A stretch of DNA of 64,000 bases from Natronosalvus rutilus. Lineage in GTDB: Archaea; Halobacteriota; Halobacteria; Halobacteriales; Natrialbaceae. The stretch is from the NCBI RefSeq assembly GCF_024204665.1, contig NZ_CP100355.1, positions 3,701,451 through 3,765,450 on the forward strand. The letters are read 5' to 3'. A program made the position numbers and the translations under genes. A model generated the notes under the pieces. It saw only the letters and a list, made by a program, of their open reading frames with translations. It was not told where the DNA came from and did no database searches. Shown piece by piece: positions 53,382 through 58,266 of this stretch (positions are counted from its first letter, which is position 1; each line of letters starts with the position of its first letter).

Positions 53382-55208
53382 TTAGGCCTCGTGGATCGCC
53401 TCCCCACGATTCAGCCGCGAGGCGATTCGGAACGTCTGTTCGGCCTCGCGGTTCGTCGGGAAGTGGGCGCCCATGTACCGCGCCGTCGCGAGCAGGGGCA
53501 TCCGTCGCGTACGCTCGTCGACGGATGGGTCGCCGGCCCCTGCATCGGCCGCTCCCTCCCCCGCGAGCAGGTCGAACTGTTGGAACGCCGCCTCGACGTT
53601 CTGGAGCGTGTGGAAGCCGGCGTCCTCTCGGAGGAGCCCGCGGCCGAGTGTCTCCTTCAGGTCGTCGGGGTCGCCGCCGCAGTCGAAGAACTCGGCAACG
53701 AGTCGGCCCGCCTCGTTGACCTCGCCCTCGCGGTCGAACGTTTCGAGGAGCGCCTCGAGGATCGCGTCCGGCTCTCGTCCGCTCTCGTTGTTCCCCGGCT
53801 CCGGCACCGGCGCGGGCGGCGTGTTGAGGAACCGGTCGAGGTAGACGCTCATTGCCGCGTCGAACACGCCGCGGTACAGTTCGACGGCGTCGGTTCGGCG
53901 GGTCGTCTGGTGAACTGCGTTGGCGTAGGTGAACGTGTGGTGGACCGTGTTCCAGTCGGAGAACTCGTTGGCGACGCCGAACTGGGCGACCCGCGTCGTG
54001 GCCGCCTGGGTGACGACCGCCGCGAGGTCCTCGGTCGTCGCGCCGTCGGCGACCGCCTCGGCCAGCGCGTCGACGATGGCTTCGGGATCGTCGCCGAGCA
54101 GCGTCGTCTGGAGATTGGCTGGCGCTTCCCACTCGCCCGCCTCGCGAGCCTCCGCTCCCTCCGCAGCCAGCGCCTCGAGCCCGCTCGTCTCGCTCACGTC
54201 GCCGCCGTAGACCTCTTCCAGCAGGGCCACGAGGTCGACTGGCTGTCGCCACGACGACGATTCATCGCTTCGGCTGGCGGTCACCAACGGCTCGACCAGC
54301 GACGCGAGGACGTCCCCCGCGAGGTCCCAGCCAACGTGCTCGAGGGACTCGAAGGCCGTGTTGGCGAAGTCCAGCACGTGGCCTGTCGTGAGGTAGGGGT
54401 GATCGGTCACCGCGGCGAAGACGATCTCCGCGACCTCGGCTTCGGCGTGGCCGGCCGCGACGGCCGTCCGCAGACAGCGCTCGGCGCCATCGGCGTCCCG
54501 GACCTCGACGCACTCGCGGAACCAGTCTTTGAGGCGCTCGAGAGATACCTCGCCCGTCGAGAACGAGGGCTGGTCGAACTTCGGTGGTTCGCCCGCACAG
54601 TCGCTCGCGACGTGGCGAACGCCGGTGTAGAGCGCCCGCTTTCGGTCCTCGGGTGCGAGGTCGTCCATCACGTTCGCCATGCAGCCGAGAATGGTCGCGC
54701 CAGAGGACCAGCCCATGTCCCGGTAGCGGGTGGCGAACTCGAGCGTCGTCGCCATCGGTTCGGCGTAGTCGACCCCCGCGTCCAGCAGGCCGATAGTCGA
54801 CTTGGCGGTCACCAGGCGCAGGTTCTCCTCGAGACCCGTCTCCAGCCTGTCGGCCCAGTGTTCGGCCGGCGAAGTTTCGAGCGGGGGATTCGGGTCGACG
54901 TAGACGATGCCGTCGCGGACCTCGGTCGGGTACGTTTGGACGTCGTCGGCCCACGGATCGAACGTGTCCCCGCAAGAGAGCTCGAACCGGGCGTGGTGCC
55001 AGTGGCAGGTCAGGATGCCGTCGTCGACGGTTCCCTCCGAGAGGGGAAAGCCCATGTGCGGACAGCGATTGTCGACCGCCCGGACCTCGCCCTCGTGGTA
55101 AAAGAGGGCGATGGCCGTGCCGTTCTTCGAGAGCAGTTCGCGACCGCTCGTTCGGAGGTCCTCGAGAGAGAGCGCCTCGACGAATCCCGATTCGGTGTCG
55201 GATGACAT
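53382..55208 (-). CDS. Rieske 2Fe-2S protein fused to a long helical domain
   Basis: 608 aa. Residues about 8-105 are a Rieske domain with CPHMG and CHWHHARF providing two Cys and two His ligands. About 500 helical residues follow with no recognised fold. This part shows three loosely similar segments, each with a histidine motif: TTGHVLDFANTAFE, VHHTFTYANAVHQ and GFHTLQNVEAAFQ, each preceded by a helical stretch such as AVAAGHAEAEVAEIV or AVADGATTEDLAAVV. This suggests internal duplication. The protein is soluble, so probably an electron-transfer or oxygenase-like component. It has its own promoter and lies downstream of the 2-oxoacid oxidoreductase genes. Confidence 0.85.
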   Translation of the reverse strand: MSSDTESGFVEALSLEDLRTSGRELLSKNGTAIALFYHEGEVRAVDNRCPHMGFPLSEGTVDDGILTCHWHHARFELSCGDTFDPWADDVQTYPTEVRDGIVYVDPNPPLETSPAEHWADRLETGLEENLRLVTAKSTIGLLDAGVDYAEPMATTLEFATRYRDMGWSSGATILGCMANVMDDLAPEDRKRALYTGVRHVASDCAGEPPKFDQPSFSTGEVSLERLKDWFRECVEVRDADGAERCLRTAVAAGHAEAEVAEIVFAAVTDHPYLTTGHVLDFANTAFESLEHVGWDLAGDVLASLVEPLVTASRSDESSSWRQPVDLVALLEEVYGGDVSETSGLEALAAEGAEAREAGEWEAPANLQTTLLGDDPEAIVDALAEAVADGATTEDLAAVVTQAATTRVAQFGVANEFSDWNTVHHTFTYANAVHQTTRRTDAVELYRGVFDAAMSVYLDRFLNTPPAPVPEPGNNESGREPDAILEALLETFDREGEVNEAGRLVAEFFDCGGDPDDLKETLGRGLLREDAGFHTLQNVEAAFQQFDLLAGEGAADAGAGDPSVDERTRRMPLLATARYMGAHFPTNREAEQTFRIASRLNRGEAIHEA

Positions 55209-55429: not shown

Positions 55430-56362
55430 TTACTTGTGGCGCTCGAGCAGGTCGTAGCTACGCTCCCACTCGGCGTCGTCGTCGAAGTACCGCTCCGCGA
55501 GCGGTTCCTCGGGCATCTCGCCCAGTTCCTTCTTCTGTTGCTGGTAGGACGGACGCTCGTCGACAAAGTACCGGCCGGTGAGGACGGTTCCCTCGTAGAG
55601 CGCGTTCTCGGTTTCGAACATCATCTCCTGGGCCTCCTTGCGGTCGTGGATGTCGAAGTCGTAATCGTCGGACTCCTGGACGTCGACGTACGGGACGTAC
55701 TGTCGGGCGTCCTTGTTCCAGGTCGGACACTGGGTCAGGAAGTCGATGTGCGCGAAGCCGTCGTGCTCGATGGCTTCTTTGATAATCTCTTTGGCCTGGT
55801 TCGGGTTGACCGCCGCCGTTCGGGCGATGTAGGTCGCACCCGAGGTCAGCGCCAGCGAGAGCGGCCGGATCGGGGACTTCGCGTTGCCGTGAGGCGTCGT
55901 CTTCGACGTGTGGCCCTTCGGGCTCGTCGGCGAGGTCTGGCCCTTCGTCAGGCCGAAGACCTCGTTGTTGAACACGATGTAGGTCATGTCGTGGTTCTCT
56001 CGAGCCGTGTGCATGAAGTGGTTGCCACCGATGCCGTAGCCGTCGCCGTCACCGCCCGCGGCGACCACGGTCAGGCCGTCGTTGGCCAGTTTCGCCGCAC
56101 GGGCGACCGGCAGCGAGCGGCCGTGGATCGTGTGGAACCCGTAGGTGTCGAGGTAGCTGTTCAGCTTGCCCGAGCAGCCGATGCCGGTGACGGTCAGGAC
56201 TTCCTCCGGGGTGAGTCCGACTTCCGGGAGGGCCTGCTTCAGCGCCTTGAGGACGCCGAAGTCGCCACATCCTGGACACCAGGTCGGCTGGGGCTCGAGA
56301 CCGGGCGTGAACTCGTCACGGTCGATCTCGCGTTCGTCGCCGATTGCGTTGAATGCACTCAT
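55430..56362 (-). CDS. porB: 2-oxoacid (probably pyruvate):ferredoxin oxidoreductase, beta subunit
   Basis: 310 aa thiamine-diphosphate subunit. TWCPGCGDFG (27-36) and TGIGCSGKLNSY (59-70) supply cluster and ThDP contacts, and GGDGDGYGIGGNHF is the Mg-ThDP motif. With the alpha subunit it oxidatively decarboxylates a 2-oxoacid and reduces ferredoxin, making acyl-CoA. Subunit lengths (310 and 633) fit the haloarchaeal pyruvate enzyme better than the shorter 2-oxoglutarate enzyme, but this is from memory. Two bases separate it from the alpha gene. Confidence 0.9.
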   Translation of the reverse strand: MSAFNAIGDEREIDRDEFTPGLEPQPTWCPGCGDFGVLKALKQALPEVGLTPEEVLTVTGIGCSGKLNSYLDTYGFHTIHGRSLPVARAAKLANDGLTVVAAGGDGDGYGIGGNHFMHTARENHDMTYIVFNNEVFGLTKGQTSPTSPKGHTSKTTPHGNAKSPIRPLSLALTSGATYIARTAAVNPNQAKEIIKEAIEHDGFAHIDFLTQCPTWNKDARQYVPYVDVQESDDYDFDIHDRKEAQEMMFETENALYEGTVLTGRYFVDERPSYQQQKKELGEMPEEPLAERYFDDDAEWERSYDLLERHK

Positions 56363-56364
56363 AG

Positions 56365-58266
56365 TCAGTCACCTGCAGCGGGTTCGATTCGAACCTGCGC
56401 GTCCGGCTCCGCGTCCGAGCCGTCGACGTTGAGCTCGTAGCCCTCGACGACGTCGGCGGGTTCGAACGGGTTGCCGTTGTACTTGAGCAGGCTGGTCAGC
56501 TTCTCGCCGTAGCGGCCGAGTTCCTTCTGGATCAGGCCGCGGAACTGGGCCGTGGCGTTCATCTCGACGACCATCGCCTGGTCGACGCTCTCGATGAACT
56601 CGGTGAGTTCGGCCTCGGGGAACGGCATCATGTCGGAGACGCCGACGGCCTTGACCGAGTGGCCCTGGTCGTTCAGGCGCTCGGTCGCCTCGAGGACGGC
56701 GCCCTGGGCCGATCCCCAGGTGATGATGCCGAAGTCGGCCGACTCGTCGCCCGCGTAGGTCTGGTTCGAGTCGTGTTCCTCGTCGAGTTCGGTGCGGATG
56801 GCCTCGAGCTTCTCGAGCCGGCGGTCCATCTGGAAGACGCGGTTGTCGGGGTCCTCCGAGATGTGGCCGGCTGGCGTGTGCTCGTTCCCGGTCGCCAGGA
56901 AGCGCCCGCCCTTCTGGCCGGGCAACGAGCGCGGGCTGACGCCGTTTTCGACGTCGTGCTGGAACCGGTGGAACTTCCCGGACTCGTCGTGCGGGAGGTC
57001 CTCGAGTTCGTCCTCGGTGAGCGTCGAGCCCAGCGATGGGTCGGGCTCGCGGTCCAGGAAGCTGACGGGGACGTTCTCGTTCTCCCCGCTCAGCTTCTGG
57101 TCGTAGATGATGATCGTCGGAATCTGGTACTCGTAGGCGATGTGGAACGCCAGGCGCGTCTGCTCGTAAGCCTCCTCGATGTTAGCGGGCGCGAAGACGA
57201 CGCGTGCGGAGTCACCCTGGCTCGTATAGAGCGTGAACTCGAGGTCGCCCTGCTCGGGTTTGGTGGGCATCCCCGTCGAGGGGCCGGCCCGCATCGACTC
57301 GAGCAGTACGATCGGCGTCTCGGTCATCTCCGCGAGGCCGAGGGGTTCGCTCATCAGGGCGAAGCCGCCGCCGGAAGAGCCGGACATGGCCTTCACGCCG
57401 GCGTGGCTCGCGCCCACGGCGAGTGCCGCGGCCGCGATCTCGTCTTCGACCTGCTCGGAGATCCCGCCCATGTCGGGCAGGTTCTGGGACATGATGGTGA
57501 AGACGTCCGTCCACGGCGTCATCGGGTAGCCGGCGATGAACCGGCAGCCGGAGTCGATGGCACCGTAGGCGATGGCGTTCGAGCCCGAGAGCAGCGCCTG
57601 CTCGTCCTCGTGGTCGCCCTCCGGGATGCGGAGGTCGTGCTCGAAGTCGTACTCCTCCGTGACCATGTCGTAGGCGTCGTGGAGGATCTCGAGGTTCGGC
57701 TCGAGGATCTTCTCGGGCATGGCGTCGCGCATCAGGTCCTCGATGTGCTCGAGGTCCATCTCCAGGAGCGCCGCCGTGACGCCGACACCCGCGGTGTTGC
57801 GCATGACCTCGCGGCCGTGCTCTTTGGCCATCGAGCGCAGGTCGATGTCGAAGACGTGCCAGTCGTTCTCCTCGGCGCGCTCCTCGAGGTTCAGGGACTC
57901 GACATCGTCCTCGGAGAGCAGCCCCGAGTCGTAGACGATGATTCCGCCCTCGTTGAGCTCGTCTAAGTTCTCCGAGAGGGGTTTGATCTCCTCGTTGCCG
58001 TAGTAGGCGCCTTCCTTCGGGTTCCGGGCGAAGGAGTCACCGAGTGCGAGGAGGAAGTTGTACCCGTCCCCCCGAGACTGTACCTTGTGCCCCGCCGCGC
58101 GGATCTCGACGTAGGTGTGGCCACCGCGAATCCGAGACGGATAGTGTCGGTGGGTAAATACGTCGAGGCCCGACCGCATGAGGGCCTTCGCGAAGTTCTG
58201 ACTCGTCGAGTCGATTCCGTCTCCGGAACCGCCTGCGATTCGCCAGATAAGTTCATGGTCGCTCAT
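56365..58266 (-). CDS. porA: 2-oxoacid (probably pyruvate):ferredoxin oxidoreductase, alpha subunit
   Basis: 633 aa, in which the gamma domain (1-190, GGSGDGIDSTSQNFAKAL) is fused before the alpha domain (about 215-580, SGSSGGGFALMSEPLG and YDQKLSGE). This gamma-alpha fusion is typical of the two-subunit haloarchaeal oxidoreductases that replace the pyruvate dehydrogenase complex. First gene of the alpha-beta pair; a long leader region without clear TATA at the usual distance precedes it, so transcription may start further upstream. Confidence 0.9.
   Translation of the reverse strand: MSDHELIWRIAGGSGDGIDSTSQNFAKALMRSGLDVFTHRHYPSRIRGGHTYVEIRAAGHKVQSRGDGYNFLLALGDSFARNPKEGAYYGNEEIKPLSENLDELNEGGIIVYDSGLLSEDDVESLNLEERAEENDWHVFDIDLRSMAKEHGREVMRNTAGVGVTAALLEMDLEHIEDLMRDAMPEKILEPNLEILHDAYDMVTEEYDFEHDLRIPEGDHEDEQALLSGSNAIAYGAIDSGCRFIAGYPMTPWTDVFTIMSQNLPDMGGISEQVEDEIAAAALAVGASHAGVKAMSGSSGGGFALMSEPLGLAEMTETPIVLLESMRAGPSTGMPTKPEQGDLEFTLYTSQGDSARVVFAPANIEEAYEQTRLAFHIAYEYQIPTIIIYDQKLSGENENVPVSFLDREPDPSLGSTLTEDELEDLPHDESGKFHRFQHDVENGVSPRSLPGQKGGRFLATGNEHTPAGHISEDPDNRVFQMDRRLEKLEAIRTELDEEHDSNQTYAGDESADFGIITWGSAQGAVLEATERLNDQGHSVKAVGVSDMMPFPEAELTEFIESVDQAMVVEMNATAQFRGLIQKELGRYGEKLTSLLKYNGNPFEPADVVEGYELNVDGSDAEPDAQVRIEPAAGD

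Follow-up and report, generated by a model that had tools for sequence, protein, structure and literature searches.

A Rieske domain fused to a helical histidine-repeat domain: a candidate Rieske-coupled non-haem iron oxygenase in haloarchaea and bacteria

The window analysed here, a 64,000-nucleotide stretch of the genome of Natronosalvus rutilus, encodes a protein in which a Rieske domain is followed by some 500 residues belonging to no sequence family. This raises the question of what a Rieske cluster does when it is tied to such a partner. The gene is a single 608-codon frame opened by an ATG (53382-55208, minus strand) and is present once in this haloarchaeal genome, whose relatives among named records are Natrialbaceae. 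Its features are the following.

53382-55208, minus strand: whole gene, 608 amino acids, Rieske plus helical histidine-repeat domain (open reading frame; full-length haloarchaeal and bacterial homologues).
54879-55184, minus strand: Rieske [2Fe-2S] domain, residues 9-110, ligands C49, H51, C68 and H71 (PF00355, E = 3e-14; ligand conservation).
53385-54875, minus strand: predicted helical domain, residues 112-608, without a sequence family and probably 8yxs-like (AlphaFold2; Foldseek).
54303-54497, minus strand: repeat copy 1, residues 238-302, with the H277 codon at 54378-54380 (profile repeat test; conservation).
53889-54092, minus strand: repeat copy 2, residues 373-440, with the H424 codon at 53937-53939 (profile repeat test; conservation).
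53529-53729, minus strand: likely repeat copy 3, residues 494-560, with the H533 codon at 53610-53612 (profile repeat test, weak; conservation).
53463-53465, minus strand: H582, fourth candidate ligand (retained by 83 of the 85 members).

The Rieske centre is complete, as the original prediction had it. The motifs C49-P-H51 and C68-H-W-H71 supply all four ligands (Pfam Rieske, E = 3e-14), and both the CxH and the CxxH pair are kept in 85 of 85 distinct homologues. The solved sequences nearest to the N-terminal 110 residues are the Rieske ferredoxins of naphthalene, toluene and biphenyl dioxygenase systems, and the best 50 Foldseek hits listed for the full-length model are Rieske proteins.

The remainder of the protein is far less familiar. 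Searches of Pfam, NCBIfam and the PDB sequences gave no match to residues 112-608, whether these were used alone, as a profile or as a set of archaeal and bacterial members. Specifically, Pfam and NCBIfam give no match to the helix-grip catalytic domain of Rieske oxygenases, and the D-x2-H-x3/4-H motif is absent from the protein. A match to carboxymuconolactone decarboxylase, seen in one member only (E 0.05-0.11), is not significant. A phage origin was also considered and dropped, with nothing matching in phages or viral contigs; the viral structure library likewise gave no meaningful match.

Three similar histidine-bearing segments had been picked out from the sequence, GHVLDFANTAFE (H277), HHTFTYANAVHQ (H423/H424) and GFHTLQNVEAAFQ (H533). 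All are present, and internal repeat detection, in which profiles of alignment blocks were compared and scored against 60 column-shuffled controls, confirms their likeness. The block spanning residues 238-302 scores 42.0 against 373-440 (shuffled maximum 13.6, 0/60), aligning H277 with H424, and 15.0 against 494-560 (shuffled maximum 13.1, 0/60), aligning H277 with H533; the remaining comparison, of 373-440 with 494-560, is marginal (1/60 shuffles). On these shuffle-controlled scores we regard copies 1 and 2 as secure and the weaker third copy as likely.

The histidines at these equivalent repeat positions, H277, H424 and H533, do not vary in any of the 85 distinct homologues, and H582 is found in 83 of them, being replaced by Y in one and by Q in one. 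H423 is missing from Bacillota members, and H606 from cyanobacterial and Bacillota members. The helical domain of the window protein contains only 12 histidines in total, so this conservation is selective. K136, D280, E316, D418 and E528 are also invariant among the 85 members. In the AlphaFold2 model, the repeat histidines lie at the start of a helix or within one.

The model of the helical domain, built by AlphaFold2 with 36 haloarchaeal sequences, is all-helical and confident (pLDDT 90.8, pTM 0.91). Searched against the PDB with Foldseek, it returned one standout, 8yxs (probability 1.00, E = 2.3e-3, 484 columns, covering the whole domain), an X-ray structure titled as a non-haem iron dioxygenase from Aspergillus brunneoviolaceus. 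Ranked by E-value, the second hit (E = 0.21, probability 0.13) is ~90-fold worse. Two C-terminal fragments of AAA ATPases, 2r9g and 3bge, gave short local matches of ~120 residues, with high probability and E about 1. When superposed globally, the model and 8yxs agree poorly (TM 0.38-0.42, rmsd 12 Å), and we therefore call the kinship of the two folds only probable. The original view that no oxygenase catalytic domain can be recognised holds for sequence (Pfam, NCBIfam) and probably fails for fold.

We assume that 8yxs belongs to the family of questin oxidases and ring-cleaving dioxygenases (GedK, AgnL3, BTG13; PF14027). Neither the window protein nor 17 archaeal and bacterial members match PF14027 (Questin_oxidase) at E up to 10, and a sequence search for PF14027 found none in 145 haloarchaeal genomes, where control genomes were likewise empty, or in 11 plasmid records. 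Because this sequence test failed, we do not claim membership in PF14027.

A fold match of this quality could also arise by chance. On that reading the domain would be a new, unrelated helical-repeat fold serving as a scaffold or docking domain, for example for ribonucleotide reductase, and the Rieske domain would act as an electron carrier. A Foldseek E of 2e-3 and a TM of ~0.4 are modest, and helical repeats yield spurious matches. However, the ~90-fold gap in E between 8yxs and the next hit, the coverage of the whole domain and a strictness of histidine conservation that is unusual for a scaffold make this explanation quite unlikely in our judgement.

The reading that we favour, with a little better than even confidence, is that the protein is a Rieske-coupled non-haem iron oxygenase with a histidine-rich iron site and a fold unlike that of classical Rieske oxygenases. 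We infer the metal, the substrate and the reaction as follows. The protein would be a single-chain, cytoplasmic enzyme whose N-terminal Rieske cluster would receive electrons from a ferredoxin or reductase and pass them to one iron in the helical domain. This iron would be held by H277, H424 and H533, from equivalent repeat positions; further candidate ligands are H582, one of the invariant carboxylates (E316, D418 or E528), or both. The iron would activate O2 for the oxidation, possibly with cleavage, of a small molecule of aromatic or quinone-like type, in the manner of fungal enzymes that probably share the fold. BTG13 is said to hold its iron with four histidines and a carboxylated lysine; set against such a site, the present sequence offers three invariant histidines, one near-invariant histidine and the invariant lysine K136. 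We weighed K136 as a possible carboxylated lysine; it sits at the start of the domain.

Support for the iron oxygenase comes from the complete Rieske domain of all 85 members; from the conservation of the three histidines, and near-conservation of H582, across archaea, cyanobacteria, Bacillota and Proteobacteria; from a significant repeat that puts the three invariant histidines at equivalent positions; and from an all-helical model with 8yxs as its standout match. In addition, the invariable fusion to an electron-transfer domain points to chemistry that consumes electrons. Against it stand the modest fold match, the absence of a sequence match to PF14027 or to any oxygenase, the replacement of H582 in two species and the lack of a reductase or of consistent pathway genes nearby. 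The repeated histidines had been proposed to bind metal or haem in a new type of Rieske enzyme. The metal enzyme gains from the invariant histidines and the 8yxs fold, whereas haem finds no support, as the protein has no CxxCH and no haem-protein match.

Work on the fungal enzymes raises a related possibility. Anthraquinone ring cleavers of fungi were long believed to be Baeyer-Villiger enzymes and are now described as dioxygenases acting after a reductase (reviewed in PMC9890505). GedK, described as cofactor-free, takes as its substrate the hydroquinone made by a separate reductase (PMC9890505). The helical domain might accordingly be an oxygenase or oxidase of the ring-cleaver type that is cofactor-free or uses another metal, with the fused Rieske domain standing in for that reductase and reducing quinone to hydroquinone rather than iron. 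We think this unlikely: invariant histidines at repeat-equivalent positions suit a metal site better, and 8yxs is named a non-haem iron dioxygenase in its title.

The gene neighbourhood adds little to the identification of a substrate. The genes porB and porA (55430-58266, same strand) lie directly upstream of the Rieske gene across a gap of 221 bases, so the reported proximity to pyruvate:ferredoxin oxidoreductase genes is correct as a matter of position. Of the genomes checked, only the two closest relatives retain this order (G112 and G113, 93-94% identity); it is absent from the rest of the genus members examined and from the named Natrialbaceae loci, and synteny with other Natrialbaceae breaks exactly upstream of the Rieske gene. 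The genes are genuinely linked here, but the arrangement is recent and unconserved, and it therefore says little about function; we have dropped a functional link with pyruvate:ferredoxin oxidoreductase.

Elsewhere the neighbours vary by lineage and so do not identify the substrate. Many Natrialbaceae share Tsr3-like, metallo-beta-lactamase-fold and DUF99-like proteins (named by eye) as conserved neighbours; in Haladaptataceae an AsnC-type regulator and ribonucleotide reductase take this place. At six Haladaptataceae loci (L056, L062, L066, L075, L108 and L112), some of them on plasmids, the gene lies just upstream of the ribonucleotide reductase alpha and beta genes, with the AsnC-type regulator before it in most. 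The presence of class I ribonucleotide reductase genes downstream would suit a docking domain for that enzyme, but the linkage is confined to Haladaptataceae and absent from all other lineages.

Alpha/beta hydrolases, SDRs or MFS transporters are frequent neighbours of the bacterial copies. On three Metabacillus/Priestia plasmids (L069, L072 and L110) an MFS transporter is close to the gene, and two of these loci (L069 and L110) also have a cyclophilin-like protein near it, together with an alpha/beta hydrolase that is closely related between the two. Outside this Metabacillus/Priestia pair, whose hydrolases are 90% identical, the hydrolases have no detectable relation to one another and therefore carry little weight as pathway evidence. 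Across the loci examined, neither a reductase nor consistent pathway genes were found nearby.

The same neighbourhoods bear on whether the protein is an enzyme at all. An alternative role is that of a sensor or regulator under redox control, with a helical domain that would bind a metal or ligand but turn nothing over, and a Rieske cluster that would register the redox state of the cell. The AsnC-type regulator gene adjoining it in Haladaptataceae and the absence of pathway genes recurring across lineages would fit such a role. We nevertheless consider it improbable, as Pfam and NCBIfam reveal nothing in the 608 residues that could serve as an output domain, be it DNA-binding, kinase or other, and the fold match is to an enzyme, 8yxs.

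The family is widespread in Natrialbaceae and patchier in other haloarchaea. A relative of the helical domain occurs in 74 of 125 genomes of Natrialbaceae, the family of the window genome (two of these matches being fragmentary or weak), and in 37 named haloarchaeal loci; among 295 sampled genomes of the phylum it was found in 18, all in the same order as the window genome. Homologues of full length and ~40-45% identity are carried on plasmids of cyanobacteria, Bacillota, and alpha- and betaproteobacteria. The haloarchaeal sequences group in a single clade with full support, in a tree whose midpoint root serves for display only. No helical domain standing by itself turned up among the members. 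The records are annotated "Rieske (2Fe-2S) protein" or similar, and a search of the papers covered returned nothing on this protein family, nor any paper joining Rieske with questin oxidase.

Two further observations deserve mention. On a plasmid of Paraburkholderia sp. PGU19 (L073, 5001-5312) there is a short remnant that matches the helical domain in its C-terminal part alone and probably represents a degraded copy. In Haladaptatus pallidirubidus (NZ_CP085301.1), the 13,431-base loci around the gene at ~1.86 and 2.41 Mb (L066 and L067) are letter-for-letter identical, reflecting either a large perfect chromosomal duplication or an assembly artefact.

Set beside known systems, the Rieske half is closest, in both sequence and fold, to the Rieske ferredoxins of dioxygenase systems (e.g., 2qpz and 5bok). 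These are stand-alone proteins of ~100-115 amino acids, whereas the protein described here has 608 and, in every member, the Rieske domain is fused to 500 more residues; it is thus not a stand-alone Rieske ferredoxin of ~100 residues. Classical Rieske non-haem iron oxygenases, such as naphthalene dioxygenase, KshA and carbazole dioxygenase, likewise place an N-terminal Rieske domain before a mononuclear iron domain, which here is putative. Their catalytic domain is of the helix-grip type; in contrast, the corresponding half of the present protein is predicted to be all-helical, with its histidines on an internal repeat. Current understanding places Rieske oxygenases in a single fold family with a 2-His-1-carboxylate iron. 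We put at about even the chance that the present family represents a second, independently evolved architecture for Rieske-driven oxygenation, a Rieske domain plus a helical-repeat domain that holds iron by three or four histidines, unrelated to the helix-grip domain and common to haloarchaea, cyanobacteria, Bacillota and Proteobacteria. If so, the Rieske solution to electron transfer arose more than once, and a family annotated only as "Rieske (2Fe-2S) protein" in the records examined gains a catalytic hypothesis.

The comparison with the fungal enzymes would then connect archaea and bacteria to the chemistry of anthraquinone ring cleavage. The helical domain is similar in length to 8yxs, which is its one standout full-length fold match, and it carries conserved histidines of its own, with no detectable sequence similarity of the helical domain to 8yxs or PF14027. 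The fungal ring cleavers depend on a reductase that acts in a step of its own; the prokaryotic proteins described here differ in having a Rieske domain fused in front, and this domain of their own would reduce the iron or the quinone substrate.
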